Positions 1-12,762 of a stretch of DNA of 12,762 nucleotides are shown one piece after another. The translations under genes were made by a program, and so were the position numbers. This stretch comes from a bacterium (GTDB lineage Bacteria; Patescibacteria; Dojkabacteria; SC72), in the NCBI GenBank assembly GCA_029553845.1, contig JAKPKF010000029.1:1-12762 (forward strand), written 5' to 3'. The notes under the pieces were generated by a model that was not told where the DNA came from, made no database searches, and worked only from the letters and a program-made list of their open reading frames with translations. The first letter of the stretch is position 1. Every line of letters begins with the position of its first letter.

Positions 1-692
1 TGTTTAATATCTTTTTGCTTCTTTGCTTCTTGAAAAATATATGCATATGCACCAATGAATATAAGTGTCACAATTAGTATTAAGATAATCCTGATAAATG
101 TTTCAGGTTGTATATTGATAGTGATTAAATCTGAGACATACTTTTGAAAGATTAAGTCTGCAGAAGAGAAGAGTAATATAAAAATGAATATTACTGGAAC
201 AGCCATTACAATACCTCTTACTATATGAGATAAAGTTTTTTGTTTTTTACTAACTTTGTGCAAAGAGAATAATTCTGACAGAGTACGAAACAGGGGAAGA
301 ATGAACTTTAATGGAAGAAAGATGATCTTTATATAATCTTTCATCAAAAAGTTACTGACCTTATTCCCATATACTGTCTTGGCTATTAATAACAAAAGTA
401 TTAAGGAAATACATACATTAAAAAAAGTAAGCAAAGTACTTGTACGAATAAAAACCATTGTACTAAAGAAAACTAGTGGAATTAAAAGCCAAACCACTTG
501 TTTGTTTATTTGTTTTTTAAGAATATGAGAGATAGCGAAAAGACCTAATACAATGAAGATAACATATATGGGAAAAGTGATACCAGGTATTTTGTCATAG
601 AAAAAATAGTCAAAGAGTAGGCCTAATATCAGAGAAATCCCTAATATTAATCCCGTTTTATTATTAGGAGTATGTGTTTTTAAGATGTTCAT
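1..692 (-). CDS. DUF4173-like multi-pass membrane protein (partial, N-terminal 230 residues)
   Basis: The gene starts with ATG at 692 (minus strand) and stays open to the left edge, so the C-terminus is missing. The translated part (MNILKTHTPNNKTGLILGIS...) is strongly hydrophobic, with about six or seven membrane segments broken by short basic loops. A stretch near residues 163-185 (RGIVMAVPVIFIFILLFSSA followed by D) resembles the 'alp.l..f..LF.SAD' signature I associate with DUF4173/DUF4153 membrane proteins, whose function is unknown. No Shine-Dalgarno motif precedes the start. A good extended -10 promoter ends 15 nt upstream, so the gene probably has its own short-leader transcript. The family call rests on recalled motif similarity only; it could be another polytopic membrane protein. 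Confidence 0.6.
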   Translation of the reverse strand, partial: MNILKTHTPNNKTGLILGISLILGLLFDYFFYDKIPGITFPIYVIFIVLGLFAISHILKKQINKQVVWLLIPLVFFSTMVFIRTSTLLTFFNVCISLILLLLIAKTVYGNKVSNFLMKDYIKIIFLPLKFILPLFRTLSELFSLHKVSKKQKTLSHIVRGIVMAVPVIFIFILLFSSADLIFQKYVSDLITINIQPETFIRIILILIVTLIFIGAYAYIFQEAKKQKDIK

Positions 693-707
693 AAGAGTAC
701 TGTTAAT

Positions 708-736
708 ATACTACCACTGTATCTACTATGAGTCAA
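708..736 (-). promoter_or_regulatory. Extended -10 promoter for the DUF4173-like gene
   Basis: On the minus strand a -35 box TTGACT (731-736) is followed, after exactly 17 nt, by TAGTAT (708-713). TGG lies directly before the -10, giving the extended form TGnTAGTAT. The predicted transcription start, near 701, leaves a leader of only about 8-9 nt before the ATG at 692. The rest of the 693-807 gap shows no terminator-like hairpin. Confidence 0.6.
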
Positions 737-807
737 AACAGAATTAACAAAGGAAAGGAATAAATTACAAGAAGAAGTAAACATTAAATTTATTAATGAA
801 AGACAAC

Positions 808-1608
808 CTAGTCTAAATCTCTCTTCATTCCATTAACATGCCTCGTTAACCTCTGTTTTAAAGAATCAAACCTGTTATTATCAAAATTCTTTAAAGACAC
901 AGGTATCTCTGTAGCATACATCTTATTCCTATCTGGATTCCTATAATCTGCTATAGATAAATATATACCAGAAATTGTCTTCTTAATTATAATTGCATAC
1001 TGCTTCCTTTCTTGTTCATCCTCAAAAGAGAACATAATCTCTTCAATTGACTTGTAGGCTAGCTCATTTGCCTTTTCCCTAAATCTCTTTGATTGATCAA
1101 TAAAACTAACATCTAAATTCTTTCTGGCTTCAATCTGTTGCAAAGAAAGATTTACTTTATCGAAAGCTTTTTCATCATTAAAAAGATAATCCTCCTCTAT
1201 ACGTTTAACATATTCTGTAGCACTAGAATTATTCTTCAAATTTTGCACAGTAAACTTTAAAATCTCTTTTTCAGAACCATTCCTCTTGAACTCGTAGGCC
1301 TCAACGCTATGTATTCTCTTCAAATCTCCTCTGTCTAGAGTTTTCTTTGTGGTACCAAAAAGCTCAACATTTGATGGATATTCAACTACTTCAATTGCCC
1401 TTAATTCAAGTCTCTGTATATCGTTATTCAAGATAGGATACTCTCGTAAAACCTCCTGACCCTTGTTAAAAATCTCTTTTAATTCATCAGAGAGTCCAGT
1501 CGAATCCTTCAAATCTGTAAATGGTCCAGGAAGAGGATTCTGCTCAAAACGAGAAATATCATTATATTGGGGTTGTTCAGGCACCTGCGATGAATTAAAA
1601 TCACTCAT
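808..1608 (-). CDS. Hypothetical protein, 266 aa, unrecognised
   Basis: This is a complete soluble protein that I do not recognise. It has no signal peptide or membrane segment. The first ~35 residues are Gln/Pro/Asn-rich and probably disordered. The rest is highly charged, with a predicted helical stretch around residues 150-200 (LQQIEARKNL... and later DEQERKQYAIIIKK). A mixed alpha/beta region near 60-125 contains VELFGTTKKTLDRGDLKR. The C-terminus ends with the basic segment LKQRLTRHVNGMKRDLD. Codon use matches its neighbours, so recent transfer is not suggested. It follows the HAD-like gene by 57 nt in the same direction, with a candidate promoter in that gap. No function can be assigned. 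Confidence 0.75.
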   Translation of the reverse strand: MSDFNSSQVPEQPQYNDISRFEQNPLPGPFTDLKDSTGLSDELKEIFNKGQEVLREYPILNNDIQRLELRAIEVVEYPSNVELFGTTKKTLDRGDLKRIHSVEAYEFKRNGSEKEILKFTVQNLKNNSSATEYVKRIEEDYLFNDEKAFDKVNLSLQQIEARKNLDVSFIDQSKRFREKANELAYKSIEEIMFSFEDEQERKQYAIIIKKTISGIYLSIADYRNPDRNKMYATEIPVSLKNFDNNRFDSLKQRLTRHVNGMKRDLD

Positions 1609-1636
1609 ATTTAGGCAGAATTACATTAATATATCT

Positions 1637-1665
1637 AATTTATCAATTACTCATGCACTAGTCAA
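1637..1665 (-). promoter_or_regulatory. Candidate promoter for the 266-aa hypothetical gene
   Basis: On the minus strand TTGACT (1660-1665) lies immediately downstream of the HAD-like gene's stop codon. It is followed after 17 nt by TAAATT (1637-1642). The -35 is identical to that of the promoter at 708-736. The -10 matches only 4 of 6 consensus bases, and an alternative TATATT lies slightly downstream, so the exact start is uncertain. Confidence 0.4.
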
Positions 1666-2250
1666 TTACCTCTTTATTACAAGATTAACAATCCTTATAT
1701 CGAAACCACAATCTACCTCTAACTTTTTTGCTAAATATCCAAGAAAATGACTTCTAAATGGAGATACAAAACTATGATCTTCTACAGAATAAATTATTAA
1801 ACTCTCCCTGTTCTGTACATATTCCATTATCTTACAAAGCAAATTATCACAACCCTTTTTATTTAGTCCTGGCAACTGCCTATTTAAAGAGGTAAACATG
1901 GGAACATCACAAATCTCTTTTACAACTTGTATCATTTCTTTACTATTCCAAAACACCCTCTCATAATCATTCCTGTTAGTTACAATTGCTACATTCTTAT
2001 CTACAAAAACATCAGATACCAAAGTACAGAAAGAATTTTTAACACTCTCAGTTATAGTAGGAGTTACAAAATGGGAAACGATTGGCAATTTTAAAATATT
2101 CTCTGCAAAAAGAGTACCATCTATATCCACCAAACAGAACTTACTCTCATCTTCTACTGTATTCTCTTTAAGATAATCTACTGCCTCTTCAAAAGACTTA
2201 ACTACAATTTCACTGTAACTATTATCTCTTTCTTGATTACTTGTTTCCAT
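1666..2250 (-). CDS. HAD-superfamily hydrolase-like protein
   Basis: This 194-aa protein carries the start of a haloacid-dehalogenase (HAD) fold. Motif I is CLVDIDGTLF, with the nucleophile D42 and acid/base D44. Motif II is AIVTNRND, with T91. A lysine pair sits at K131-K132 in LPGLNKKGCDN, and an acidic IIYSVEDHSF segment (E157, D158) sits where motif IV binds Mg2+. Family knowledge suggests phosphoryl transfer, probably phosphatase activity, on an unknown substrate. The insert between motifs I and II (residues ~50-85) is too short for a large cap domain. Motif IV is not the usual DD or GDxxxD, so activity is plausible but unproven. The ATG at 2250 overlaps the end of dus by 14 bp, which suggests co-transcription and coupling. 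Confidence 0.65.
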   Translation of the reverse strand: METSNQERDNSYSEIVVKSFEEAVDYLKENTVEDESKFCLVDIDGTLFAENILKLPIVSHFVTPTITESVKNSFCTLVSDVFVDKNVAIVTNRNDYERVFWNSKEMIQVVKEICDVPMFTSLNRQLPGLNKKGCDNLLCKIMEYVQNRESLIIYSVEDHSFVSPFRSHFLGYLAKKLEVDCGFDIRIVNLVIKR

Positions 2251-3169
2251 TTTTCTCGATTATTATTTTAATTTCTTCAAAAGTCCTTGTATTCATCAAC
2301 TCCTCTCTTAGTTTACCCGCTCCATCAAAACCACTAACATATGCCTTAATATATTTCTTCTGTATATTGAAATTCTTCTCCTCACCATATACCTGTTCAA
2401 ATATCTCTAAATGTTTTTTTAATGTTTCTAACCTTTCCTTTTTGGATATATCCTCTCTTCCAGAAAAAAGCCATGGATTTGTTAAAATCCCCCTTCCAAC
2501 CATATATCCATCTAAACCATACTGCTTTGCCAGTTCCTCTCCTTGCATAGTACTTTTAATATCTCCGTTACCAATTAACAAAGTATCTGGAGATATTTCA
2601 TCTCTTAATTCTTTAATCTCTTTGAATATGTCCCACTTAGATGGAGTAGAGTAGCCCTCCTTTGCTAATCTCCCATGCACAGTTAACATGGCTAACTTTT
2701 TAGAAAGTAAAAACTCTATCCAAGAGTAATCTATCTTGTCATACCCAATTCTAGTCTTAACAGATACGGGAATATCCTTGGCATTCTTCTTAACCACATC
2801 TATTATCTCACCACTTAGCTCTCTTTCTTTAATTAGTGCAGAACCACCACCAGTCTTTAGTACATCTCTGACAGAACAACCCATATTGATATCTATACCA
2901 TCGGGTTTAATCTTTTTAACAATCTCTTTAGTTGCTTTAGCAAAGTTCTCAGGAGAGTTTCCCCAAAGTTGTACTATGATTGGCCTCTCTATATCCTCAA
3001 AGGATATTCTCTTTGCAACAACATCTTTACCCTCCGAACAGTAACCATTAACATTCATAAACTCAGTAAAGAATATATCTGGTTTTCCAATATCACAAAG
3101 AATTTGTCTAAAAACAGTATCTGTGACATCCTCCATAGGAGCGAGGATTTTTAGTAATTTACCTTCCAT
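2237..3169 (-). CDS. dus: tRNA-dihydrouridine synthase (Dus family)
   Basis: A flavoenzyme that reduces specific uridines to dihydrouridine in tRNA using FMN and NADPH. Family marks from the N-terminus are ILAPMEDVTDTVFRQ (FMN-binding TIM-barrel start), FFTEFMN, and DINMGC with the catalytic Cys98 followed by KTGGGSALIK. Further on come VSVKTRIGYD, LTVHGRLAKEGYSTP with the active-site His, LLIGNGDI, and DGYMVGRGILTNPW (phosphate binding). The usual NxGCP is GCS here. Starting at ATG 3169 gives 310 aa, normal for the family. The frame stays open to 3295, but that extension (a Leu/Ser repeat) would overlap the divergent gene and lies before the conserved fold. An extended -10 box sits 5 nt upstream of 3169. 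It appears DusB-like, but the paralogue type is not certain. Confidence 0.92.
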   Translation of the reverse strand: MEGKLLKILAPMEDVTDTVFRQILCDIGKPDIFFTEFMNVNGYCSEGKDVVAKRISFEDIERPIIVQLWGNSPENFAKATKEIVKKIKPDGIDINMGCSVRDVLKTGGGSALIKERELSGEIIDVVKKNAKDIPVSVKTRIGYDKIDYSWIEFLLSKKLAMLTVHGRLAKEGYSTPSKWDIFKEIKELRDEISPDTLLIGNGDIKSTMQGEELAKQYGLDGYMVGRGILTNPWLFSGREDISKKERLETLKKHLEIFEQVYGEEKNFNIQKKYIKAYVSGFDGAGKLREELMNTRTFEEIKIIIEKNGNK

Positions 3170-3174
3170 CGCCA

Positions 3175-3183
3175 ATTCTATCA
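3175..3183 (-). promoter_or_regulatory. Extended -10 box for dus, possibly leaderless
   Basis: The minus strand reads TGATAGAAT here: TGn plus TAGAAT, 5 of 6 consensus. The box ends 5 nt before the ATG at 3169, so transcription would start at or next to the start codon. There is no convincing -35 at 16-18 nt, which extended -10 promoters can tolerate. A second hexamer, TACAAT, lies at 3187-3192 and would give a leader of about 11 nt. Confidence 0.45.
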
Positions 3184-3197
3184 CATATTGTAAAAAC

Positions 3198-3226
3198 TTG
3201 AATTCTGTAAGTATTTCAAATAGACT
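3198..3226 (+). promoter_or_regulatory. Candidate promoter for the membrane protein / Clp unit
   Basis: TTGAAT (3198-3203) is followed after 17 nt by TAGACT (3221-3226). This predicts a start near 3233 and a leader of about 21 nt before the ATG at 3254. Both hexamers match consensus at 4 of 6 positions. It lies back to back with the dus -10 box. A short tandem repeat AAAGATAAAGAT (3228-3239) covers the predicted start. Confidence 0.45.
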
Positions 3227-3253
3227 TAAAGATAAAGATAAACTGCCCATAAA

Positions 3254-3655
3254 ATGGAAGTTAAAAACACAGTCTCGGATAGTTCCGGACAACAATTACT
3301 CACAGAGACAAAAACCGATTCATATTCGGCTATATTTTTGTACTTCATACAAGATTTTTTAAGATGGTGGTATGTAAGAATGCCAATATGGCATTTAAGA
3401 AAGCTTGCTCGTATTAGTGTTGTTGTTAACGACAATCTCTCACTGTCTCTGTTAGTACAAAATTTCTTCTTACCATGGCATAGAGATTATTCTATGATGG
3501 GATATGTATTTGGACTACTCATTAAAATTCTGTACATACCAATTGCTTTAATCATATATCTTACAAGCATACTAACTTACACAATCATCATACTAATTTG
3601 GTTACTACTTCCCATTGGTACACTTACATTCATTTTTACTTCAATACTTAGATAG
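3254..3655 (+). CDS. Small membrane protein paired with the tethered Clp ATPase
   Basis: A 133-aa protein with a soluble, Ser/Thr-rich N-terminus (1-25). An aromatic amphipathic region follows (FLYFIQDFLRWWYVRMPIWHL, about 28-48). Next is the motif FFLPWHRDYSMMGYVFG (71-87), and then two hydrophobic helices at about 84-105 and 108-130. I recall similar 'F.PWkRDy...G...G...R' proteins next to Clp ATPase genes in Candidate Phyla Radiation genomes, but no function is known to me. The stop lies 2 nt before the Clp start, so the two are almost certainly co-expressed, and both carry two membrane helices. I infer that they form a membrane complex. The start is supported by the promoter upstream; there is no Shine-Dalgarno motif. 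Confidence 0.8.
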   Translation: MEVKNTVSDSSGQQLLTETKTDSYSAIFLYFIQDFLRWWYVRMPIWHLRKLARISVVVNDNLSLSLLVQNFFLPWHRDYSMMGYVFGLLIKILYIPIALIIYLTSILTYTIIILIWLLLPIGTLTFIFTSILR

Positions 3656-3657
3656 TT

Positions 3658-6381
3658 ATGGCATTAGATTTTGATATGCAAGAAAAAACAATATGTGGAT
3701 ACCATAAAAGAAATACCAATAAATTTGGTATCCTTGAGAACAAATTTCCAATCTTTCAAGATGAGAATGACTCCATATTTCTTCTAACCAGAGATCATTT
3801 CTTCTCTATATCTACACCACAGATTACATCTGTTATTAAAAACTACTTAAGATACAAAAAATTTGGAGATATTAAAAGAATAGTGGCAAATATTCTTGTT
3901 CTCCCTGGTGTCTTCATTGCTCTTGCATCTATTTTGAAATATGCTGACCTCTTGGATCAATTTGAGTCCATTACTAAAATACTAGAGAGTAAGTTAGTAA
4001 ATGTACTGTTTGGTATTTCCATATTCAATGTCATAATCCTCTGGCATGATTTCTACGAAGAAAAAAGCCATCCTATTCAATTACCAAAAGCAAAGAAAAT
4101 ACAACAGAAAGAGATAGATGAGATAAAAGCAACAGGGTTTAAATTTGGAAGATATGGTCATCTAGATACTGTAAGTTTTGCTTCAGAACAAACTCTTGAA
4201 TTACTCTGTAACTTTACAAAAGACAACCAATTCCAAACATACGATCTTTTTAAATATCTTCTTAAAGAGGATTACGACATTCAGCAGATTGTAAGAAGAT
4301 CTGGGATAGAGATGTCTGTAAATGAGATGGAAGAAAAATTCAAAATCGGAGAGGATGTCATTCCAGATTATCCAATTACAGCCCTGAGAAGCATACTAAC
4401 ATACGCCATAGAGGAAGCTATCTTAACAGAAAGCAGACAGTTAGAACCTCAACATATATTTCTTGCCATACTAAGATTGTATCCACAGACTCTCAAGTAT
4501 ATACAAGCGAAAGGAATATCCATAGACATACTTAGAGAAATCTCTCTTTACAACAACAGTCTAATTGCAAAAGCACAAAGAACCAAACATCTTGATCCAA
4601 ATATCCCTTACTTTAACAAAGGTGGCATAGCTAGAAGATGGATATATGGATACACCTTCATATTAGGACACTTCAGTAAAGATTTAACTGAGGAAGTAGC
4701 AAATAACAGAGATATCTACGGTATAGGACATGATGAAGAAATTGAAAACCTTGTTTCAGTCCTTGGAAAACTTTCAAACAAAAATGCTCTTCTAATTGGT
4801 GAAGCAGGAGTAGGAAAATCTAGCTTAATACTTGGAGTTGCTCAAAGAATAAATACTGGCAATGTTCCAATACAATTAAAAGACAAACGAATTGTCCAAT
4901 TGGATATCAATGGATTAATAGCACACTCTCTAAAAATGGGAAATATTGAAGAACTAATAATGAAGGCAATGCAAGAATTAGAAAATTCCGGTAATGCAAT
5001 TCTCTACATAGATGAGATGCAAGAGCTAATCCCAGCTAAAGCTGAAGAATCTAACCATTCTTTAGCAGGAATTCTTCTTCCATATATCCTAAACAGTAAA
5101 TTCCCCATAATTGGAACTGTAAACTATTCAGATTACAAAAAATATTTCTACAGTAACGAATCCTTAAGACAAAGCTTCACAAATATTGAGGTTAAAGAAG
5201 TTTCTACTACAGATACATTGAAAATTTTGGAAACAAAGATTGCAACATTAGAAAAGAATTTTAATTGCTACATTACATTCCCAGCATTAGTTGCTTCTGT
5301 AGAACTAGCTTACAGATATATCAAGGAAAGAAAACTTCCAAGTAGTGCAGTACAGACTATTGAAGCTACATGCTCATGGGCACAATCAAATAACATCCAG
5401 AAGATAACAGCAGAGCATGTTTCCAAAGCTATCTCCATACAGAAGAACATAAACATAACAGATATAGACCAAGAAGAAAGTAATAAATTAAGAAAACTAG
5501 AAGAGAATATACGGAAAAAAATCATCGGACAGGACGAAGCAGTTATTGCAATTACTGAGTCTCTCCGAAGAGCAAGAACAGATATTAGAAATCCGGAAAA
5601 ACCAATTGGAGTTTTTCTTTTTATGGGTCCAACAGGTGTAGGAAAAACATATCTTGCGAAGGTAGTAGGGGAAGAATTTTTTGGAAACAAGAGTGACATA
5701 ATTAGAGTAGATATGTCAGAGTACCAAGATATAAATAGTGTAGATAAATTCCTTGGGACGACACAGGGTAACAATGTATTTGGACAAACAAATATTACCC
5801 TCGTTGACAGAGTTAAGAGTAATCCTTACACAGTAGTTCTCTTTGACGAAATAGAGAAGGCAAATCCTAAAATCCTTAATCTTTTCCTTCAGATTTTCGA
5901 TGAAGGAAGACTCACAAGTGCAGCGGGAGAAACAGTAGATTTTACCAATACTATTATCGTTTGTACAAGCAATATTGGAAGTGGAATTCTTCTTCAGGCA
6001 CTAGAGCAGGATGAAGCACTGTGGGGAGAAGCAAAAGACAGAGCCATGATAGAGCTTAGACAATCACTAAGTCCAGAGTTACTAAATCGTTTTGACAGAG
6101 TCATTGTGTTCTCACCATTAGATATAAATCAGCTTAAGAATGTTGCAGAACTTCTTCTAACAGAACTTAAGGAAAGAATGATAGATAAAGGTATAAATAT
6201 TAAATGGACAGACCAGATACCAATGCTCATCGCAAACAAAGCCAACGAGCCAGGAATGGGTGCAAGACCTCTTAAAAGATATATACAAGATAAAATAGAG
6301 GGACAGATTGCAAAGGAAATTATTGAAGGAAATCTCAAATCCGGAAGTGAGATAGATATAAAGGAGAATTGGATAATATAA
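3658..6381 (+). CDS. Membrane-tethered double-AAA+ Clp/Hsp100-type ATPase
   Basis: A 907-aa two-ring unfoldase of the ClpA/B/C family. Order: N-terminal soluble part (1-70); two membrane helices (about 75-97 and 112-132); two divergent Clp-N repeats (about 170-295); a linker with RWIYGYTFILGHFSKDLT; AAA ring D1 with Walker A GEAGVGKS (381-388) and Walker B ILYIDE (D452, E453); AAA ring D2 with Walker A GPTGVGKT (657-664), Walker B VLFDE (D730, E731), arginine finger R811 and sensor-2 GAR (R870). Oddities: D1 has SLRQSF (502-507) where LERRF normally supplies two arginine fingers; the D1 pore-loop Tyr position is Lys426; D2 has NNVFG instead of GYVG. The coiled-coil middle domain is absent, and no IGF/VGF ClpP-binding loop is seen after the TSNIGSG segment. 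A ClpP-independent unfoldase or disaggregase at the membrane is therefore more likely than a ClpP partner. Confidence 0.9.
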   Translation: MALDFDMQEKTICGYHKRNTNKFGILENKFPIFQDENDSIFLLTRDHFFSISTPQITSVIKNYLRYKKFGDIKRIVANILVLPGVFIALASILKYADLLDQFESITKILESKLVNVLFGISIFNVIILWHDFYEEKSHPIQLPKAKKIQQKEIDEIKATGFKFGRYGHLDTVSFASEQTLELLCNFTKDNQFQTYDLFKYLLKEDYDIQQIVRRSGIEMSVNEMEEKFKIGEDVIPDYPITALRSILTYAIEEAILTESRQLEPQHIFLAILRLYPQTLKYIQAKGISIDILREISLYNNSLIAKAQRTKHLDPNIPYFNKGGIARRWIYGYTFILGHFSKDLTEEVANNRDIYGIGHDEEIENLVSVLGKLSNKNALLIGEAGVGKSSLILGVAQRINTGNVPIQLKDKRIVQLDINGLIAHSLKMGNIEELIMKAMQELENSGNAILYIDEMQELIPAKAEESNHSLAGILLPYILNSKFPIIGTVNYSDYKKYFYSNESLRQSFTNIEVKEVSTTDTLKILETKIATLEKNFNCYITFPALVASVELAYRYIKERKLPSSAVQTIEATCSWAQSNNIQKITAEHVSKAISIQKNINITDIDQEESNKLRKLEENIRKKIIGQDEAVIAITESLRRARTDIRNPEKPIGVFLFMGPTGVGKTYLAKVVGEEFFGNKSDIIRVDMSEYQDINSVDKFLGTTQGNNVFGQTNITLVDRVKSNPYTVVLFDEIEKANPKILNLFLQIFDEGRLTSAAGETVDFTNTIIVCTSNIGSGILLQALEQDEALWGEAKDRAMIELRQSLSPELLNRFDRVIVFSPLDINQLKNVAELLLTELKERMIDKGINIKWTDQIPMLIANKANEPGMGARPLKRYIQDKIEGQIAKEIIEGNLKSGSEIDIKENWII

Positions 6382-6385
6382 AAAG

Positions 6386-6414
6386 TTGAAAAATACGCAG
6401 TTATCCCATATAAT
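6386..6414 (+). promoter_or_regulatory. Strong sigma-70-type promoter for rpmF-nusB-rnc
   Basis: TTGAAA (6386-6391), a 17-nt spacer and a perfect TATAAT (6409-6414). This is the best consensus promoter in the window. The predicted start, near 6421, gives a leader of about 23 nt, with no Shine-Dalgarno motif before the ATG at 6444. It begins 5 nt after the Clp stop codon and separates the ribosomal block from the Clp unit. Confidence 0.75.
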
Positions 6415-6443
6415 CTCAAAGTTAATATATACGAATTTTAACC

Positions 6444-6617
6444 ATGGGTGCACTACCAAAAAGAAGAATATCCAAAGGGAGGAAGAACAGAAGAAGAGCT
6501 CAAGATGGATTGAAAGTTACATCTCTTTCTAAATGTCCTAAATGTGGAAATATGAAGAGAGCACATTTTGAATGTCCAAGTTGTGGCTTCTATAAAGAAA
6601 TTAAAGAAACTAAATAA
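6444..6617 (+). CDS. rpmF: 50S ribosomal protein bL32
   Basis: A 57-aa protein, normal length for bL32. It begins MGALPKRRISKGRKNRRRAQ, the basic rRNA-binding N-terminus typical of the family (usually MAVPKRKTSK...RR). A zinc ribbon follows with C31-P-K-C34 and C44-P-S-C47, so this is the four-Cys, zinc-binding form. The protein binds 23S rRNA in the large subunit. The ATG at 6444 follows a near-consensus promoter. The stop TAA at 6615-6617 directly abuts the nusB start (TAAATG), so the genes are co-transcribed and probably translationally coupled. Confidence 0.95.
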   Translation: MGALPKRRISKGRKNRRRAQDGLKVTSLSKCPKCGNMKRAHFECPSCGFYKEIKETK

Positions 6618-7052
6618 ATGAAAAGAGCGACTGACCCTAGACATTTAGCAAGAGTCCTGGCACTACAGGAACTTTTCTCAAAAGATTTTAACAAAGATAG
6701 CGTTAATACAGATACTATTCCTCTTACAGAGTTAATTGAGTTAGATGAAATTACACAATACGACACAAAGTTATATGAGAAAATTAAAGAGGGAGTTATA
6801 GATAATAACACAGAGATAGATTCAATCATTACAAAATATGCACCTCAATGGCCATTAGATCAGATAAAACTTGTTGACCTTCAAATTCTTAGAATAGCAA
6901 TATTTGAGGGATTCATTGGTAAAATAACACCTCCAAAAGTAGCTCTAGACGAAGCAATTGAGATTGCCAAAGAGTTTGGAGGAGAAACAAGTAGTAAATT
7001 TGTAAATGGTGTTTTAGGTGCAATATATGAAGAAACAAATGGAAAAGTTTAA
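6618..7052 (+). CDS. nusB: Transcription antitermination factor NusB
   Basis: A 144-aa all-helical RNA-binding protein, normal length for NusB. It binds boxA RNA with ribosomal protein S10 and supports antitermination in rRNA operons. Family signs are the N-terminal RHLARVLALQELFSKDF, the central WPLDQIKLVDLQILRIAIFE, and the C-terminal PPKVALDEAIEIAKEFGGETSSKFVNGVLGAIYEE, which is close to the NusB consensus. It starts immediately after the rpmF stop, with no Shine-Dalgarno motif, and its end overlaps the start of RNase III. The position between ribosomal protein and RNase III genes fits a role in rRNA synthesis and processing. Confidence 0.96.
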   Translation: MKRATDPRHLARVLALQELFSKDFNKDSVNTDTIPLTELIELDEITQYDTKLYEKIKEGVIDNNTEIDSIITKYAPQWPLDQIKLVDLQILRIAIFEGFIGKITPPKVALDEAIEIAKEFGGETSSKFVNGVLGAIYEETNGKV

Positions 7053-7746
7053 CGATATACAAAAGAATATTGGTATTACATTTAAAAATCCCCAATTACT
7101 GGAGATAGCTCTTACTCATAGGTCATATTTAAACGAACACCAAGGAGCAAATATAGAGAACAATGAGAGATTGGAATATCTTGGCGATGCAGTATTAGAA
7201 CTAATTATCTCTGACTATATATTTCGAAAGTATCCAGGAAAGGCAGAAGGAGAATTAACAAGTATTCGTTCTGCAGTAGTTAGAACTGAAAGTTTAGCAG
7301 AAGAATCCAGAAAGCTTGGTGTTGGAGAAAATTTACAAATGTCCAAAGGAGAGAAAGATTCTGGAGGTGAAAACAAAGACTACTTACTTGCAAATGCATA
7401 CGAAGCTGTTCTGGGAGCAATATATCTAGACAGTGGAATGGAAGAGTGTGTGAACTTTGTAAATAGAACTTTAGTACCAAAGATTGATCGAATAGTAGAG
7501 AATAATCTCTTCATAGATCCAAAAACTCAAGCTCAAGAGATAATTCAAGCAAAATACAAAACAACTCCAACCTATGTAATTGTAAAAGAAGAGGGACCAG
7601 ATCATGACAAGAAATTTACAGTTGCTCTTCTCATTAATAACAAGGAAAAAGCACAAGGACAGGGAACAAGTAAGCAAAAAGCTGAAGAAGGTGCAGCTCT
7701 TGCGGCTATCGAAAAGATAGGAAAAGAATCTGAATCCTTGAATTAA
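7039..7746 (+). CDS. rnc: Ribonuclease III
   Basis: A double-strand-specific endoribonuclease that matures rRNA and cuts structured RNAs. The catalytic domain has ALTHRSYLNEH and the signature NERLEYLGDAVLE. E43 and D50 match E. coli E38 and D45. The later motif LLANAYEAVLGAIYLDSG gives N119 and E122 at the places of E. coli D114 and E117, so one metal-binding Asp is Asn. A double-stranded-RNA-binding domain follows (about 160-230), with PTYVIVKEEGPDHDKKFTVA and GTSKQKAEEGAA. Numbering uses ATG 7039 (235 aa), which overlaps nusB by 14 bp. ATG 7027 (adds 4 residues; an AGGTG lies 6 nt before it) is equally possible, and GTG 7018 is less likely. Confidence 0.94.
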   Translation: MEKFNDIQKNIGITFKNPQLLEIALTHRSYLNEHQGANIENNERLEYLGDAVLELIISDYIFRKYPGKAEGELTSIRSAVVRTESLAEESRKLGVGENLQMSKGEKDSGGENKDYLLANAYEAVLGAIYLDSGMEECVNFVNRTLVPKIDRIVENNLFIDPKTQAQEIIQAKYKTTPTYVIVKEEGPDHDKKFTVALLINNKEKAQGQGTSKQKAEEGAALAAIEKIGKESESLN

Positions 7747-7766
7747 TATATATCATCTGATAAAAT
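7738..7766 (+). promoter_or_regulatory. Extended -10 promoter for rpsP, predicted leaderless
   Basis: TTGAAT (7738-7743) overlaps the last codons of rnc. A 17-nt spacer leads to TAAAAT (7761-7766), preceded by TGA, so this is an extended -10. Only 8 nt separate the -10 from the rpsP ATG at 7775, which puts the expected transcription start at or within a few nt of the start codon. There is no Shine-Dalgarno motif. Confidence 0.65.
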
Positions 7767-7774
7767 CCATCACT

Positions 7775-8074
7775 ATGTTAAAAATAAGACTTAAAAGAAC
7801 GGGAAGAAGAGGAGATCCACATTACAGAATTGTTGTAATTGAATCCTCTAAAGGAAGAGATGGAAGACCAATAGAAGAGCTTGGGGTTTACAGTCCAAGA
7901 AGTAATCCTAAAGTTTTTGAAATTGATCAGGAGAAGGCAGCTGTATGGTTAAAGAATGGAGCTCAACCTACAGACACTGTTGCACAGTATTTCGTTAAGT
8001 TAGGCTTACTTAAGAGCCTTAAAAGAGGTTCTCACAAACCTAACACAGAAAAGAAGACAAAGGAGCAAGAGTAA
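7775..8074 (+). CDS. rpsP: 30S ribosomal protein bS16
   Basis: A 99-aa small-subunit protein that binds 16S rRNA and is needed for 30S assembly. The N-terminus MLKIRLKRTGRRGDPHYRIVV is diagnostic. It is followed by DGRPIEELGVYSP, a KVFEIDQEKAAVWLKNGAQPTDTV helix region and LGLLKSLKRG. The core is normal. The last ~15 residues form a Lys/Glu-rich tail (KPNTEKKTKEQE), making it slightly longer than typical. It has its own promoter in the 28-nt gap after rnc and is followed by khpA, a widely conserved pairing. Confidence 0.96.
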   Translation: MLKIRLKRTGRRGDPHYRIVVIESSKGRDGRPIEELGVYSPRSNPKVFEIDQEKAAVWLKNGAQPTDTVAQYFVKLGLLKSLKRGSHKPNTEKKTKEQE

Positions 8075-8078
8075 GAGT

Positions 8079-8104
8079 ATAATAATTAAAGTATTTTAAT
8101 TATT
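8079..8104 (+). repeat. AT-only inverted repeat between rpsP and khpA, with a TATAAT
   Basis: Perfect 10-bp arms AATAATTAAA (8081-8090) and TTTAATTATT (8095-8104) with a 4-nt loop, followed by T-rich sequence. The shape is terminator-like, but the stem has no G:C pair, so it would be weak. A perfect TATAAT (8079-8084) overlaps the left arm and could act as a -10 for khpA with a leader of about 25 nt, though no good -35 sits 17 nt upstream. It could be an attenuator, an operator or chance. Confidence 0.4.
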
Positions 8105-8115
8105 TTATTACAGAT

Positions 8116-8442
8116 ATGAAAGAGCTACTAGAACACATTGTGAAGTCAATAGTAAATCATCCAGATAGTGTAAGTATTGAGGAGAAGGAAAGTGTAGATT
8201 TTCCTGGACTTACTATTCTCACAATAGACGTCGCAGAGGAAGATAAAGGCGTTGTTATAGGTAGAAAAGGAAGAACCATCAACGCAATAAGAGATCTAAT
8301 CACTATCAATGCAATTCGTACAGATAGAAGAGTAAAAGTTCTAATTAAGGATGACAAAGCTGGAAATAGAGAAGAACCACAAAAAGAAGCTCCACAAGAG
8401 GGAAATTCTACAGAAGGGGATATGCTCTACGACGAGATCTAA
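8116..8442 (+). CDS. khpA: KH-domain RNA-binding protein KhpA
   Basis: A 108-aa protein with a single KH domain. It begins MKELLEHIVKSIVNHPDSVSI, and the hallmark GxxG loop is G49-R50-K51-G52 in GVVIGRKGRTINAIRDL. KhpA (YlqC) family proteins bind RNA, often with KhpB, and affect ribosome assembly and cell-envelope regulation. The usual length is about 75-80 residues. Here an extra acidic, low-complexity tail of roughly 25 residues follows (EEPQKEAPQEGNSTEGD...). Its position after rpsP is the conserved one, but rimM, trmD and rplS do not follow. The stop TAA overlaps the stop of the convergent pilO-like gene by 4 bp. Confidence 0.92.
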   Translation: MKELLEHIVKSIVNHPDSVSIEEKESVDFPGLTILTIDVAEEDKGVVIGRKGRTINAIRDLITINAIRTDRRVKVLIKDDKAGNREEPQKEAPQEGNSTEGDMLYDEI

Positions 8443-9155
8443 TCTAACTCTTTAGCCTTGCTTTCAAATATCTTAACGACATTATCATCCGTTGTATATG
8501 GCTCGAATTTACTGTAAAGATTAAACTCATCAATATTCTCTGGAACATAATATCCTGTGACATTTAACTCTACTGTCCAATCCTTGCTAGATTCTGACAG
8601 GGATATATTCTCTACAGATATGATATATGGAGATGCAGAATACAAACTCTCTAGAAAACTCAATATATTTTCCAAACTACCCGAATATGCAAGTGGTCCA
8701 CTCACACCCAATATATATTTTCCTTCTTTCTTTTCACCGCCACCAATTTTTATGTCTCCTGCAGAGATTTTCTCAGAAGAAAGATTTTTCTCAAAAGCCA
8801 GATTATCTATGTAGTATATAAAGCTAGAAACCTTTAAAGTCTTTGGTATAACATTTTTTGCATTAACCAAATCTGCTTGTAGGGTGGTCTCGTCTAGATT
8901 ATTCAGAGCTATCTCAAGTTGTTCCAATTGTTTTTCCTTCGCCTTAACATCTACATATTCATTCCTTACTGCAAGAGCTTCCTTAATCATTGGTATAAAT
9001 ACAAATATTCCAAGTACAACTAGAACTATAACTGCTACTATCGGAACAAGGATATCAGTAAATGTCAATCGAGTTTTCTGAATCTTCTCACTTACTGCCT
9101 CTATCTCTTTCTTTATTTTTTCTTCTTTTACATTCTTTTTTATTAAGTTTGCCAT
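8439..9155 (-). CDS. pilO: PilO-like type IV pilus inner-membrane protein
   Basis: A 238-aa bitopic protein with a charged cytoplasmic N-terminus (1-30), one membrane helix (about 33-56, TFTDILVPIVAVIVLVVLGI...) and then a coiled coil (about 60-100, VDVKAKEKQLEQLEIALNNL). An alpha/beta extracytoplasmic domain (about 105-215) completes it. This architecture and the gene order after PilM and PilN identify it as PilO-like; sequence alone is weakly conserved in this family. PilO pairs with PilN in the platform that links the cytoplasmic motor to the fibre. Its ATG overlaps the pilN stop by one base (TAATG), indicating coupling. Its TAG stop lies inside the convergent khpA stop, with no terminator visible. 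Confidence 0.8.
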   Translation of the reverse strand: MANLIKKNVKEEKIKKEIEAVSEKIQKTRLTFTDILVPIVAVIVLVVLGIFVFIPMIKEALAVRNEYVDVKAKEKQLEQLEIALNNLDETTLQADLVNAKNVIPKTLKVSSFIYYIDNLAFEKNLSSEKISAGDIKIGGGEKKEGKYILGVSGPLAYSGSLENILSFLESLYSASPYIISVENISLSESSKDWTVELNVTGYYVPENIDEFNLYSKFEPYTTDDNVVKIFESKAKELD

Positions 9156-9820
9156 TATGTTGATGATACAAAATCAGTAAATACTAATTTTCCTTGAAAA
9201 GTGAATCTCACTCCAGTTTCTGTCTTCCCAACAGATTTTAGTACAATACTCTCAACCTTACTATCGTTTGAAAGAAGATACCAAAACTTCGAGACTTCTT
9301 CATAACTGTAAGCCTCTCCATCTATATCGAAAGAAAGCTGACTTCCAAAATCAAAAGAACTAAGTTTTATACTACCACTCTTTGAAGCAATATTGTTTAT
9401 GTACTCAATGACGGTTCTAGGAGAGAAAGCATTTTTTTGGATGTCTTTATACAAAGATATCCTTTCTCTTATCTCGTTATTTCCAGTTATCTTGTAAGAG
9501 ACGGAGCTTAATCTCTGTTCATAGTTATATAGTTTTTCTTTCTCACTATTTAGCTGTATTTTTGAAATAATATTGAAACCAACAACTAGTATAGAAACAA
9601 CAACTAATGCCATTAGACTAATAACCGCACCCATATTTAAAGTCTTCTTTTTCGTTTCTTTAATAACCTCTTCTTTAGAAAGATTTGGAATAAGATTGAT
9701 TCCTGTACTCTCCTTTGTGGGTGGGGTAGGAGGGGTAACTTTTTTAATGGGAGTTTCTTTCTTCTTATTAATAAGAAGAGCATCCTCTGGTTTTTTGTTT
9801 TGGATCGGGGCTTTATTCAT
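9155..9820 (-). CDS. pilN: PilN-like type IV pilus inner-membrane protein
   Basis: A 221-aa bitopic protein. The PilN hallmark GINLIPN, the N-terminal peptide that docks into PilM in characterised systems, lies at residues 40-46. It follows an unusual Lys/Pro/Thr-rich extension (1-39, with TPPTPPT at about 29-35); in most PilN proteins the motif is within the first ~10 residues. One membrane helix spans about 63-86. A coiled coil (about 88-120) and a small alpha/beta domain follow. The start overlaps the end of pilM by 8 bp and the stop overlaps pilO by 1 bp, so the three are one unit. An alternative start close to the motif would need a non-ATG codon. Identification rests on motif, topology and order. 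Confidence 0.82.
   Translation of the reverse strand: MNKAPIQNKKPEDALLINKKKETPIKKVTPPTPPTKESTGINLIPNLSKEEVIKETKKKTLNMGAVISLMALVVVSILVVGFNIISKIQLNSEKEKLYNYEQRLSSVSYKITGNNEIRERISLYKDIQKNAFSPRTVIEYINNIASKSGSIKLSSFDFGSQLSFDIDGEAYSYEEVSKFWYLLSNDSKVESIVLKSVGKTETGVRFTFQGKLVFTDFVSST
9719..9735 (+). other. G-rich tract, possible G-quadruplex
   Basis: The plus strand carries G runs of 3, 4, 2 and 4 separated by 1-2 nt (GGGTGGGGTAGGAGGGG), rare in such AT-rich DNA. It is the non-mRNA (template) strand of the pilN Pro/Thr linker, coding TPPTPP. A two-layer or bulged quadruplex could form, but the codon bias of a Pro/Thr linker is a simpler source. Confidence 0.35.
9760..9779. repeat. 20-bp perfect palindrome inside the start of pilN
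   Basis: TCTTCTTATT followed directly by its reverse complement AATAAGAAGA. It lies in the pilN codons for about LLINKKK (residues 15-21), 41 nt after the start codon. In mRNA it could fold as an ~8-bp hairpin with a 4-nt loop; in DNA it resembles an operator. No function is known. Confidence 0.5.
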
Positions 9821-10844
9821 CTTTTAATGCCAAACCAATAGCTACAGAGTATGAAGGACCACTCTTTGCTATTATATCTTTTAATTTATTGTCAATCTTT
9901 ATGGAATTCCATGGCATAGCTATTGTAGCTGTTACTCCAAGACTCTTTGAAACATACTCTGGCAAACCTGGAAGCAATGCTCCATCTCCATTAAGGATAA
10001 AATCTGTGGGAGATGCAGAAAGAGTTTTGTTTTTGTAAAACTCTACACCTCTTCTTACCTCTACCATGATAGATTCAACAATAGGGGAGATAACATTGTA
10101 AATTTTTCCTTCTAGAACATTCTCAACAACACCGTAATTTCTTTTAAACTCCTCTGCTCTTGGATATTCAAAACTGAATTTGTTAATAATGGCTTGAGTA
10201 AGAGAGTCTGAACCAATTGCAATACTTTGAGAGAATACTAAATATCCATCAGAGAGTATACTCATGTCTGTACTATTTGCTCCGAAGTCCAGCATAACGA
10301 GATTTTTCTTTTTTGTAGACTTATACATTGCTCTACCCATAGCTACAGACTCCGTCTCGATGGCTACAAGCTCCAAACCAGCCAAGGTAGCAATGTTTAT
10401 GTAAATATCTATGATCTTAAGAGGAGCAGCAACTAGAAGTACTCTAGGGGCGTTCTTCTCTTGGTTAAATCCGATAGGAACATAACTCAACTGAACCTCT
10501 TCAAGAGGCATAGGGATATACTGTTTAGCCTCAAAATATACAGCATCCTTAAGCTCTTCTTTTTTTACACCTGGAAATTCTAAAAATCTCGTAAAAACAG
10601 AAAACTCTGGAAGTGCCATTACTGCATTTTTATTCTTAATATTTGATGAATCGTATAGCTTTTTTAGAACATCTGCGAGTTTTTTCTGGTCTAATTTGTC
10701 CTCACTATTTATCACTCCTTTGGGAGTAATTTGTGAGCCTAAATTAACAAGCTCTGGAGTTTCAGAGAAAATATTCTTAAGCTCTACAGCTTTTACAGAA
10801 TGTGTACCAAAATCTATACCTACATGATCGGGCAACTTTGACAT
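9813..10844 (-). CDS. pilM: PilM-like actin-fold ATPase of the type IV pilus
   Basis: A 343-aa cytoplasmic protein of the PilM/FtsA-like actin fold. Phosphate-1 motif: VGIDFGTHSVKAVEL (8-22). Phosphate-2: LVMLDFGANSTDMSIL (182-197). Adenosine motif: ILNGDGALLPGLPEYV (283-298), with GDG where GGG is common. The middle region EAKQYIPMPLEEV (105-117) is a PilM family signature. PilM binds ATP and the N-terminal peptide of PilN, forming the cytoplasmic ring of the pilus platform. Length matches the family (about 350). It follows the response regulator by 62 nt, where an extended -10 lies, and overlaps pilN by 8 bp. No Shine-Dalgarno motif precedes the ATG. Confidence 0.93.
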   Translation of the reverse strand: MSKLPDHVGIDFGTHSVKAVELKNIFSETPELVNLGSQITPKGVINSEDKLDQKKLADVLKKLYDSSNIKNKNAVMALPEFSVFTRFLEFPGVKKEELKDAVYFEAKQYIPMPLEEVQLSYVPIGFNQEKNAPRVLLVAAPLKIIDIYINIATLAGLELVAIETESVAMGRAMYKSTKKKNLVMLDFGANSTDMSILSDGYLVFSQSIAIGSDSLTQAIINKFSFEYPRAEEFKRNYGVVENVLEGKIYNVISPIVESIMVEVRRGVEFYKNKTLSASPTDFILNGDGALLPGLPEYVSKSLGVTATIAMPWNSIKIDNKLKDIIAKSGPSYSVAIGLALKDE

Positions 10845-10877
10845 ATTTTGAGCAGATTTTAACTAATTAGTTTATAT

Positions 10878-10886
10878 ATAATATCA
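10878..10886 (-). promoter_or_regulatory. Candidate extended -10 box upstream of pilM
   Basis: The minus strand reads TGATATTAT: TGn plus TATTAT, 5 of 6 consensus. It predicts a start near 10871 and a leader of about 27 nt. A second hexamer, TAAAAT (10856-10861), lies 11 nt before the ATG and would give a near-leaderless transcript. Neither has a good -35, and the sequence here is AT-rich enough for chance matches. Confidence 0.35.
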
Positions 10887-10906
10887 AAAAGTAATTATAT
10901 TTGGTA

Positions 10907-11284
10907 TTAACCAAGATACTTTTCTATTTCTTTTACAAGACCTTCATAATCCAGATCTATCTTTACAAGGTATGAGGAGGCTCCAAGATCAAAAGCCTCT
11001 TTAATGACCGTATCGCTTGTCATATTAGTAAGAATAATAACAGGAATATCTCCATACTTTTCTTTGTTTGTCTTCATTGCTTTCAATACCTCCAAACCAT
11101 CAACACCTGGCATCATTAAATCCAAAAGTACAAGATCAATATTTCCCAATTGTGAAGCAAGTATGTCTAGTCCTTGATAACCATCCGTTGCTACCATGCT
11201 ATTAAAGCCTACAGATTCTACTAATTCTTTGTATGAATCTAACAAATCTTTTTCATCTTCGATGATTAATATTGTCTTACCCAT
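10907..11284 (-). CDS. Single-domain response regulator (CheY/PilG-like receiver)
   Basis: A 125-aa stand-alone receiver domain with no output domain. All key residues are present: acidic pocket E9-D10, phosphoacceptor D55 in LVLLDLMMPGVDG, switch T86 in VIILTN, Y105 and the conserved K108 in SSYLVKID. Phosphorylation by a histidine kinase (not in the window) should change its binding to a partner protein. Its position between minor-pilin genes and pilM suggests control of pilus assembly, as PilG/PilH-type receivers do in twitching systems; this is inferred from context. Gaps of 48 nt upstream and 62 nt downstream are larger than elsewhere in the cluster, so it may have its own promoter. A TAGAAT -10-like box (11291-11296) lies 6 nt before the ATG. 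Confidence 0.95.
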   Translation of the reverse strand: MGKTILIIEDEKDLLDSYKELVESVGFNSMVATDGYQGLDILASQLGNIDLVLLDLMMPGVDGLEVLKAMKTNKEKYGDIPVIILTNMTSDTVIKEAFDLGASSYLVKIDLDYEGLVKEIEKYLG

Positions 11285-11290
11285 ATTCAG

Positions 11291-11296
11291 ATTCTA
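11291..11296 (-). promoter_or_regulatory. -10-like box 6 nt before the response-regulator start
   Basis: TAGAAT on the minus strand, the same hexamer as at dus, ends 6 nt before the ATG. A transcript starting here would be leaderless. It lacks both a TGn extension and a good -35. A 12-bp AT-only palindrome, TTTAATATTAAA (11301-11312), sits just upstream and may be chance. Confidence 0.3.
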
Positions 11297-11332
11297 ATAA
11301 TTTAATATTAAAATATATCCATCTTATATATA

Positions 11333-12043
11333 TTACCAGTTTATACCTTCGGTTGTAACTACCGCCTGCCTAAATACCTCTCGGTTTACAGGAGCACTTG
11401 AGGCTAAGTACCAACTAATCGGTTGAGCAGAGAGATCAAACCTAATTATGTAGTTTCCACCAGTAGATTCTGTATATGCGATATTGAATGAATTAATATC
11501 TACATTTTCAGAATTTAGCACTATGGTGTACATACGATAATCCTCAGTAGTTCCGTCAAAACATTTCTGTGCATTACCCCAAAGGTCTTGTGTAGAGGTT
11601 TTTATGACATATCCCATTTCACTTTCAGGATCCATGTCTCTAAAAAAACCAATACATATCCAGTTGGTATACCCATATGGTTTAAAGTGTATTTCATTCC
11701 CTGTTACATTTTCACCTAGTGGAACTGCATACACAGACGAGATATCTGCTATCTCAGGATTATTCCTAACAACACCGTTTTCTGAATCATACATTCGAGC
11801 ATCCAGAGAGTTGTAAATCATTACATCAGCAGGATTTGAATTTCTAACAGTTCTTCTTACTAGCTCTAAAACAAATTCAGTCTCATTTCTTACTCTTGTT
11901 TTGTTACTAGATACTGTAGATATTTTAATTAGGGTAGTCAGAGTCACAGAAGCAATCAACATAACCATACCCATGATTACAATGGTGATTAACATTTCTA
12001 CCAAACTAAAACCTTCGTATTTGTTTCCTTTCAGATTTATCAT
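11333..12043 (-). CDS. PilW-like prepilin (minor pilin)
   Basis: A 236-aa prepilin with a class III signal: NKYEG|FSLVEMLITIVIMG. Prepilin peptidase should cut after G11, leaving F12 at +1 and E16 at +5, the residue used in pilin assembly. The hydrophobic helix covers residues 12-38. The rest is a beta-rich extracellular domain with a pair of Cys (in NWICIGFF and QKCFDG) that could form a disulfide. The size and position after a PilV-like gene suggest a PilW-type minor pilin. Its ATG overlaps the upstream gene's TGA (ATGA), so translation is coupled. Minor pilins prime fibre assembly and may carry adhesive surfaces; the exact role here is unknown. Confidence 0.85.
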   Translation of the reverse strand: MINLKGNKYEGFSLVEMLITIVIMGMVMLIASVTLTTLIKISTVSSNKTRVRNETEFVLELVRRTVRNSNPADVMIYNSLDARMYDSENGVVRNNPEIADISSVYAVPLGENVTGNEIHFKPYGYTNWICIGFFRDMDPESEMGYVIKTSTQDLWGNAQKCFDGTTEDYRMYTIVLNSENVDINSFNIAYTESTGGNYIIRFDLSAQPISWYLASSAPVNREVFRQAVVTTEGINW

Positions 12044-12561
12044 AGATTAACAACAGTAAAGTAAGAATAGTCTTTAACATTGTTTCCTTTCGTTATTGTT
12101 CCTTCCGAATTTAGCTCTCCAACAATAATATTCCCAGATACATATCTGTCTCCCACAGAATAAGATTCAAAGCAGTAAATCCTAAAGAATTCTTCATTAA
12201 TAGCTGCATTTGAAACATACTCCCCTCTGTTTGCGTCAGCTTCTAAATATAAGAAGTTGCCATCAAGACCCTTCTTGAAAGTAAAGACTCCAGCCTCTGA
12301 TAGTGGGACATAACACCCTGCAATATTTGGAAATAGATCTTCACCAGTAACTTTTTCCTGTTTTGCAATTTCTTTAACCGTTTCTGCCCCTTCGAGAGCA
12401 ATTTGAGTCATGGTATCTATCTTTTCATTTTGTATTACTCCCTGCATTGTATTTACAGCTATTTGCATAAGGATAACGGAAGATGCACCAACTACCATAA
12501 TAGCAATTAAAGCTTCTACAAATCCTAGTGCTTCATATTTTCTCTCTATCTGCTTTGTCAT
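12040..12561 (-). CDS. PilV-like prepilin with atypical cleavage site
   Basis: A 173-aa protein with a prepilin-like N-terminus: RKYEALGFVEALIAIMVVGA. Aligning E16 as the +5 Glu puts the cut after A11, giving EA|LGFVE, with Ala at -1 instead of the near-invariant Gly. This matches the KYEG|FSLVE of the next gene residue for residue. Cutting after G13 instead would leave Glu at +3. A hydrophobic helix (about 12-35) is followed by a globular region with two Cys (in AGCYVP and IYCFES). It overlaps both neighbours by 4 bp (ATGA), so it belongs to the minor-pilin operon. PilV-like is a positional guess. Confidence 0.75.
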   Translation of the reverse strand: MTKQIERKYEALGFVEALIAIMVVGASSVILMQIAVNTMQGVIQNEKIDTMTQIALEGAETVKEIAKQEKVTGEDLFPNIAGCYVPLSEAGVFTFKKGLDGNFLYLEADANRGEYVSNAAINEEFFRIYCFESYSVGDRYVSGNIIVGELNSEGTITKGNNVKDYSYFTVVNL

Positions 12562-12762
12562 AATACTAATGATGATATTTTCCCTGATAAATTATTCACT
12601 ATAAATTGTCTGGTTTTTCCAACTCCAAGAGGATCTATTGTTAAAACAAAATTAAAGACATTTTCTGCCTGTTTACCATCTGCTTGGTAATTTACAAGTT
12701 CTCCATTTGCGTCGTAAAAGAATGCTCTTCCAGAGATGGATTCAAAGACAACATATCCAATT
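12558..12762 (-). CDS. Pilin-like protein (partial, C-terminal 67 residues)
   Basis: The open frame enters from the right edge and ends with TGA at 12558-12560, overlapping the next ATG by 4 bp. The visible residues include VVFESISGRAFFYDANGELV and FVLTIDPLGVGKTRQFIVNN, ending LSGKISSLVL. A beta-strand-rich end of the type 'F.V...SGKI' is common in GspH/FimT/PilE-like minor pilins. The N-terminal prepilin signal lies outside the window, so assignment depends on this C-terminal pattern and on the operon. It is too short a stretch to exclude other secreted proteins. Confidence 0.65.
   Translation of the reverse strand, partial: IGYVVFESISGRAFFYDANGELVNYQADGKQAENVFNFVLTIDPLGVGKTRQFIVNNLSGKISSLVL

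Follow-up and report, generated by a model that had tools for sequence, protein, structure and literature searches.

The stretch of DNA analysed here (the window) comprises the 12,762 nucleotides of contig JAKPKF010000029.1 (positions 1 to 12,762, forward strand) of the Dojkabacteria assembly GCA_029553845.1. On its forward strand, 2 nucleotides separate an upstream open reading frame (ORF) for a small hydrophobic protein of 133 amino acids from a downstream ORF for a Clp/Hsp100 ATPase of 907 amino acids (Table 1). The nearest relatives of this pair belong to Dojkabacteria (WS6), with some genome bins labelled just bacterium, Patescibacteria or Microgenomates. We regard both the clade of Clp ATPases to which the larger protein belongs and the family of its small partner as new, and the evidence set out below supports a membrane complex of the two proteins.

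Table 1. Coordinates of the features identified in the window, with the basis of each assignment.
Feature	Position	Strand	Basis
Small membrane partner, 133 amino acids	3254..3655	+	ORF list
Motif FFLPWHRDY, residues 71-79	3464..3490	+	Alignment of members
C-terminal hydrophobic hairpin, about residues 81-128 (bounds from relatives)	3494..3637	+	Hydrophobicity, alignment
Membrane-anchored two-ring Clp/Hsp100 ATPase, 907 amino acids	3658..6381	+	ORF list, Pfam, AlphaFold2 model
N-terminal beta-rich domain, residues 1-52 (model: 12-50)	3658..3813	+	AlphaFold2 model
Membrane hairpin, with helices modelled at residues 53-95 and 112-137	3814..4068	+	Hydrophobicity, AlphaFold2 model
Clp N-domain-like helical region, residues 150-307	4105..4578	+	Pfam in relative, model, structure comparison
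D1 AAA module with intact Walker A and Walker B motifs; no Arg fingers at the aligned columns	4654..5493	+	Pfam, alignment
D1 pore loop, HSLKMGN vs GAKYRGE in E. coli ClpB	4924..4944	+	Alignment
D2 AAA module with its lid; all motor residues present	5497..6381	+	Pfam, alignment
D2 pore loop of 14 residues, TTQGNNVFGQTNIT vs APPGYVGYEEGGY in E. coli ClpB	5758..5799	+	Alignment
ORF without significant Pfam match	808-1608	-	ORF list, Pfam
ORF with DxDGT motif, without significant Pfam match	1666-2250	-	ORF list, Pfam
Pilus cluster	8439-12561	-	Pfam scan
PilN, sub-threshold match	9155-9820	-	Pfam
PilM	9813-10844	-	Pfam
Response regulator	10907-11284	-	Sequence scan
Protein with N-methylation motif	11333-12043	-	Sequence scan

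Domain architecture and membrane anchoring of the Clp ATPase

The initial annotation, made from the DNA sequence, described the larger protein as a Clp ATPase with N-terminal membrane helices ahead of two AAA+ rings, a description borne out by domain matches, hydrophobicity and structural modelling. A Pfam search recovered both Clp AAA modules (D1 and D2) together with the D2 lid, which ends at residue 900 of 907, and the AlphaFold2 model, generated from a 62-sequence alignment, has a mean predicted local distance difference test score (pLDDT) of 81.4. The two modelled helices of the membrane hairpin include both hydrophobic segments of the protein. Downstream of the hairpin, the best rows of the structure comparison align from residue 172 to the N-domain of ClpC with a high root-mean-square deviation, presumably reflecting a shift in the position of the modelled domain relative to ClpC. 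The Clp N-domain family PF02861 scores above its cut-off in one relative (L021) and is precomputed in 6 of the 120 homologues listed. The structure searches mainly covered the AAA part of the protein and barely the membrane parts.

Hydrophobic segments like those of the window's ATPase also occur in its relatives. Hydrophobic segments were defined by a Kyte-Doolittle threshold of at least 1.6 over a 19-residue window in stop-to-stop frames, so that some N-terminal segments may precede the true start. By this measure, 66 of the 68 Clps encoded separately from the small protein carry hydrophobic segments before D1 (two in 43, one in 19 and three in 4), and of the two that carry none, one (L007) is a fragment cut by the contig end and the other (L077) is interrupted by an N gap. 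In the 22 fused proteins, where the small domain and the Clp share one frame, there are always one to four segments, at least one of them within the small domain. None was detected in 8 control Clps, which comprise ClpA and ClpB of E. coli plus six further Clps from Patescibacteria.

Of 90 Clps, 7 (L017, L018, L088, L090, L096, L099 and L111) have paired CxxC motifs ahead of the membrane helices, several of them in the DnaJ-like form CxxCxGxG. These pairs likely form a zinc ribbon, perhaps with a role in client binding. CxxC motifs without the look of a ribbon also occur in L116, L128 and L130.

The small membrane partner

The 133-residue protein has the two helices and the FFLPWHRDY motif that the initial annotation attributed to it, and its C-terminal part is hydrophobic. 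Across 49 aligned members, Pro74 of the motif is invariant (49/49) and Pro120 of the hairpin is near-invariant. No convincing relative of the protein was found in Pfam, NCBIfam or the PDB. Assignment to a known family was rejected after scans of the 49 members, which returned weak matches to one member each (T2SSF, 0.022; TraG_N, 0.032; bCoV_NS6, 0.042; HypC, 0.0035) that were taken as chance; a PDB search of these members to E=1 gave no match. A protein search with the 49-row alignment yielded 253 matches, the best 120 of which, short of the outer range of the family, share 52-93% identity with the small protein of the window.

Distribution, genetic linkage and gene fusion

The distribution of the pair was surveyed in 239 genomes, all from the Patescibacteria. 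A profile of 15 small-protein members matched in 139 of these genomes and a profile of 49 members in 141, in single copy save for a weak second match in G081, with best E-values per genome from 6e-33 to 8e-12 (limit 1e-3). In the class to which the Dojkabacteria relative G001 belongs, 38 of 57 genomes encode the small protein.

The small gene is rarely found apart from the Clp in this sample: for 137 of the 141 small-protein matches, one of the Clp matches listed either is fused to the small protein or follows it on the same strand at a distance of no more than 3.5 kb. In the other four genomes (G044, G048, G139 and G186), the small-protein and Clp matches are on separate contigs and the Clp match is truncated. 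Because the matches are truncated and close to the start or end of a contig, these look like pairs split by contig ends; the loci of G044 (L043) and G186 (L135) were inspected, and in L135 the start of a Clp does come after the small gene. The Clp matches listed include six from genomes that lack the small gene: one beside an N gap (G051), two at contig ends (G175 and G135) and three that are short, GYVG-bearing Clps (G091, G165 and G176). Seven further matches among those listed are not beside the small gene of the same genome, comprising the four contig-split pairs and three other Clps with GYVG or GYIG (G128, G173 and G162).

A similar arrangement was seen among ten Clp relatives on contigs of other Patescibacteria (L014-L023), where a small hydrophobic protein lies upstream of the Clp, or at its N-terminus in L023, in 8 of the 10. 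The small protein of L018 is recognised by the profile, and L022 starts within the Clp at a contig end. In L015, the two genes are separated by one ORF (3032-3430), whose product resembles a four-helix-bundle (S23-type) protein.

The small-protein match lies in a frame of at least 600 amino acids in 36 of the 141 genomes. Twenty-one of these long frames were fetched and each, as well as L023, holds the small domain and the Clp in a single frame; for the remaining 15, the small-protein and Clp matches report an identical frame length. On a tree of 96 sequences, obtained by a quick search with Shimodaira-Hasegawa-like approximate likelihood ratio test (SH-aLRT) support only and with L003 and L007 omitted, the fused or separate state changes at least five times, and a single branch with an SH-aLRT value of 100 splits the family from the 8 other Clps. 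Of all the evidence gathered, this repeated joining or splitting points most strongly to the two proteins functioning as a single physical unit. The initial annotation had named two findings that would count against it, namely frequent occurrence of one gene in the absence of the other and an ATPase lacking membrane helices, and neither was observed. Taken with the linkage and with the hydrophobic segments in both proteins, it makes a two-protein membrane complex with a dedicated partner, as the initial annotation had proposed, well supported, and the fusions imply that the two probably bind directly.

The structural model of one fused protein (L055; pLDDT 88.3, predicted template modelling score 0.81) indicates how the two parts may be joined. 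Its partner part consists of a long helix (residues 2-45), a loop bearing the F-x-P motif, and two helices (65-113 and 116-137), and the membrane helices continue into the Clp N-domain, with the N-domain-like helices (150-287) coming directly after those of the partner. The partner hairpin thus takes the place occupied in separate Clps by their own hairpin.

Catalytic residues and pore loops of the two AAA modules

Residues of the two modules were compared between 90 full-length family members and the 8 control Clps. The six Patescibacteria controls had been set aside because they hold GYVG or GYIG, which raises a concern of circularity; an independent definition of the family, by a small gene fused or at the same locus, covers 87 of the 90 members, the others being at contig ends (L003 and L007) or beside an N gap (L077). 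No GYVG-bearing Clp is directly linked to a small gene: five of the six such loci have none, and at the sixth (L084) the small gene adjoins another, GYVG-less Clp copy.

In L084 (genome G128), the GYVG Clp (strand coordinates 2600-5188) and the membrane Clp pair share a strand and lie some 3 kb apart. The short Clps of G091, G165 and G176 (L079, L081 and L082) are proteins of about 550 amino acids with GYVG in D2, a degenerate D1, and neither N-domain nor hydrophobic segment, and represent another Clp variant.

Conservation in D2 is strict: the Walker A Lys and Thr, the Walker B Asp and Glu, the Arg finger and the sensor-2 Arg are present in 90 of 90 members, and the sensor-1 Asn in 89. In D1, the Walker A Lys is kept in 86 of 90 members, the Walker B Glu in 36 and the first Arg finger in 20; the D1 of the window keeps both Walker motifs, but its Arg-finger columns are occupied by Gln and Ser. 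The pore loops also depart from those of threading Clps, which carry an aromatic KYRG in D1 and GYVG in D2 at the canonical position, as Tyr occupies the pore column in none of the 90 members in D1 and in two in D2. The D2 loop has a median length of 9 residues in the family vs 13 in the 8 controls; GYVG or GYIG is found in 8 of 8 controls, six of which were chosen by that feature. The D2 loop does separate the family from the control Clps, and pore loops changed in this way speak against threading of the ordinary kind. At the region corresponding to the IGL docking site of ClpA, a hydrophobic-Gly-hydrophobic tripeptide, which is a loose pattern, occurs in 0 of 90 family members.

Relationship to known Clp ATPases and membrane-associated AAA+ machines

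The window's Clp resembles the class I proteins ClpA, ClpB and ClpC in having two AAA modules followed by the D2 small domain or lid, a Clp N-domain-like region and the same fold, and a PDB search returned 57 distinct sequences at E<=0.001, of which ClpB and ClpC were the best. It differs from them in its membrane hairpin, dedicated membrane partner and often decayed D1, and in the absence of a GYVG pore loop, a ClpP-docking-like tripeptide and an M-domain insertion; a D1-D2 profile aligned E. coli ClpB as two pieces around its insertion, whereas the family aligned uninterrupted. Among the 25 NCBIfam rows listed, no Clp model is matched above its cut-off, and the ClpB equivalog TIGR03346 scores 469.3 bits vs a cut-off of 1232.

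Several other AAA+ machines operate at membranes. FtsH is membrane-anchored and carries its own metalloprotease domain, whereas in the window's Clp the end of the D2 lid leaves no room for a C-terminal M41 protease. In PTEX (HSP101, EXP2 and PTEX150), a Clp/Hsp100 ring sits at a membrane, with a soluble HSP101 that threads substrates into a separate pore; HSP101 (6e10) is among the structural matches of the Clp, but no pore-forming partner is evident for it. Torsins contain one AAA module and form a single ring. In PMC5425593, they are described as membrane-associated relatives of Clp/Hsp100 proteins that do not have aromatic pore loops and need membrane cofactors, of which LAP1 has a luminal domain with an AAA+ fold that completes the torsin active site. 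The window's Clp thus shares with torsins and LAP1/LULL1 a Clp/Hsp100 kinship, membrane association, the absence of aromatic pore loops and a membrane cofactor. Torsins, however, act as a single AAA ring in the lumen of the endoplasmic reticulum, whereas the Clp has two AAA modules, a D2 with its own Arg finger and a small hairpin protein as partner; with its two modules, it also scores below the Pfam Torsin cut-off (26.4 vs 27 bits).

Proposed function and alternative explanations

Extraction or remodelling of membrane proteins by the pair, as first suggested from the sequence, is possible. The reading we favour, with about an even chance of being correct, is that of a ClpP-independent, two-subunit, membrane-tethered remodelling ATPase driven by D2, probably not a conventional threader and loosely torsin-like, its mechanism and the nature of its substrate being inferences. 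In this proposal, the Clp hexamer would lie on the cytoplasmic face, tethered both by the hairpin that it carries and by the partner. As in the fused proteins, the partner would be positioned directly ahead of the Clp N-domain. D2 would hydrolyse ATP, while D1 would serve mainly in nucleotide binding and regulation. The resulting force would remodel or dislodge membrane-located proteins without feeding ClpP and probably without long processive threading, a logic comparable to that of torsins that would have been arrived at independently.

Our weighting rests on the linkage, the fusions, the D2 loop and the genomes without ClpP, and it was unchanged after the D1 and docking-pattern controls. 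A ClpP match is absent from 20 of the 36 genomes with a fused gene vs 9 of the 105 with separate genes, so that the machine persists where ClpP appears lost; the ClpP-less fused genomes may be one lineage that lost it. A wider claim, namely a core Patescibacteria machine of a kind undescribed in bacteria, an Hsp100 without threading or ClpP that combines a D2-only motor with an obligate two-helix subunit and remodels the envelope of reduced, often epibiotic cells, is put forward tentatively and with more doubt than confidence.

Several observations weigh against a ClpP-independent, non-threading remodeller. Torsins are single-ring proteins, so the analogy is a loose one. The completeness of the genomes is not given, and single absences of ClpP are weak one by one. 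Both Walker motifs of D1 are intact in Dojkabacteria, where D1 may hydrolyse ATP, and among the 8 control Clps the D1 pore Tyr is absent from five and the D1 Walker B Glu from three, so the D1 features are not specific to the family. The docking pattern is positive in E. coli ClpA, as expected of a control, and is matched by chance in ClpB and two of the six others; given this looseness, only its absence from all members is informative. The D2 loop of the window, at its full 14 residues, is not shortened and retains a Phe, and some aromatic residue is present in the D2 loop segment of 29 of 90 members, with which threading could still be compatible. Finally, the neighbourhoods outside Dojkabacteria, judged by eye, suggest no substrate.

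The main rival is a membrane-protein dislocase with an unusual grip, in which the ring would extract proteins from the bilayer through its pore by means of unconventional loops, with clients presented by the small protein. The fold, which structure comparison places among the Clp ring-formers, the retained D2 motor residues and the D2 loop segment are all consistent with it; in 67 of 90 members, this segment contains some residue of the hydrophobic or aromatic set YFWILMV, and the window's has a Phe. The scarcity of Tyr at the canonical D2 column and the shorter D2 loop of the family overall speak against it, and on balance we consider it unlikely, if a serious contender. Such a dislocase would in any case be no replacement for FtsH, an option rejected on the grounds of co-occurrence: FtsH is encoded in 130 of the 141 genomes with the small gene and in 94 of the 98 without it (p=0.29; 224 of 239 overall).

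Alternatively, the pair could be a regulatory or scaffolding pseudo-chaperone, in which the ATP state of the ring would switch a membrane platform without mechanical remodelling. The catalytic decay of D1 and the altered pore loops fit this explanation, but the strict conservation of the D2 motor would be superfluous in a mere scaffold, and we regard it as improbable.

A role in pilus or secretion assembly was raised by the initial annotation, which named pilins as possible clients, and this part of its proposal found no support. In the window and in its Dojkabacteria relatives G001 and G003, the pair is followed at a distance of about 3.5 kb by a PilM gene on the opposite strand. Over the whole sample, however, PilM occurs in 118 of the 141 genomes with the small gene and in 75 of the 98 without it (Fisher p=0.18), and no pil genes were recognised beside the pair in L014, L016, L017, L019, L020 and L023 when the first 70 residues of the ORFs were judged by eye, which leaves an assembly factor very unlikely. 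Least probable of all is a membrane-bound partner of ClpP, by which Clp and ClpP together would form an FtsH-like membrane protease: ClpP is encoded in 112 of the 141 genomes with the small gene, but equally in 80 of the 98 without it (p=0.74) and, as noted, not in many fused genomes, and this partnership is rejected on that want of association and on the missing docking-like tripeptide, loose as the pattern is.

Novelty and significance

A literature search found no description of the membrane Clp or its partner in the texts covered, supplements, where families may be listed, being outside its scope. A protein-family survey of the candidate phyla radiation (CPR) reports 106 families enriched in the CPR, of which 76 have a transmembrane helix and the majority are poorly annotated (PMC6744442); Clp is not mentioned in its main text, and a term search of the main text of PMC10633639 returned no Clp. 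PMC12419801 and PMC12993457 deal with other subjects.

The pair is present in about three in five of the sampled Patescibacteria genomes (141/239), cells whose envelope biology is poorly known. A protein currently annotated as a Clp protease subunit becomes a probable ClpP-independent membrane machine, and an unnamed protein family gains a partner, while the natural fusions render the complex directly expressible. The family would also provide a bacterial example of a Clp ATPase that lacks aromatic pore loops, as has been discussed in the case of torsins.

Other features of the window

The remaining features assigned in the window are all on the reverse strand. A pilus cluster with PilM, a sub-threshold PilN, a response regulator and a protein with an N-methylation motif lies downstream of the pair, and two ORFs lie upstream, one of which (1666-2250) bears a DxDGT motif of the kind present in HAD phosphatases.

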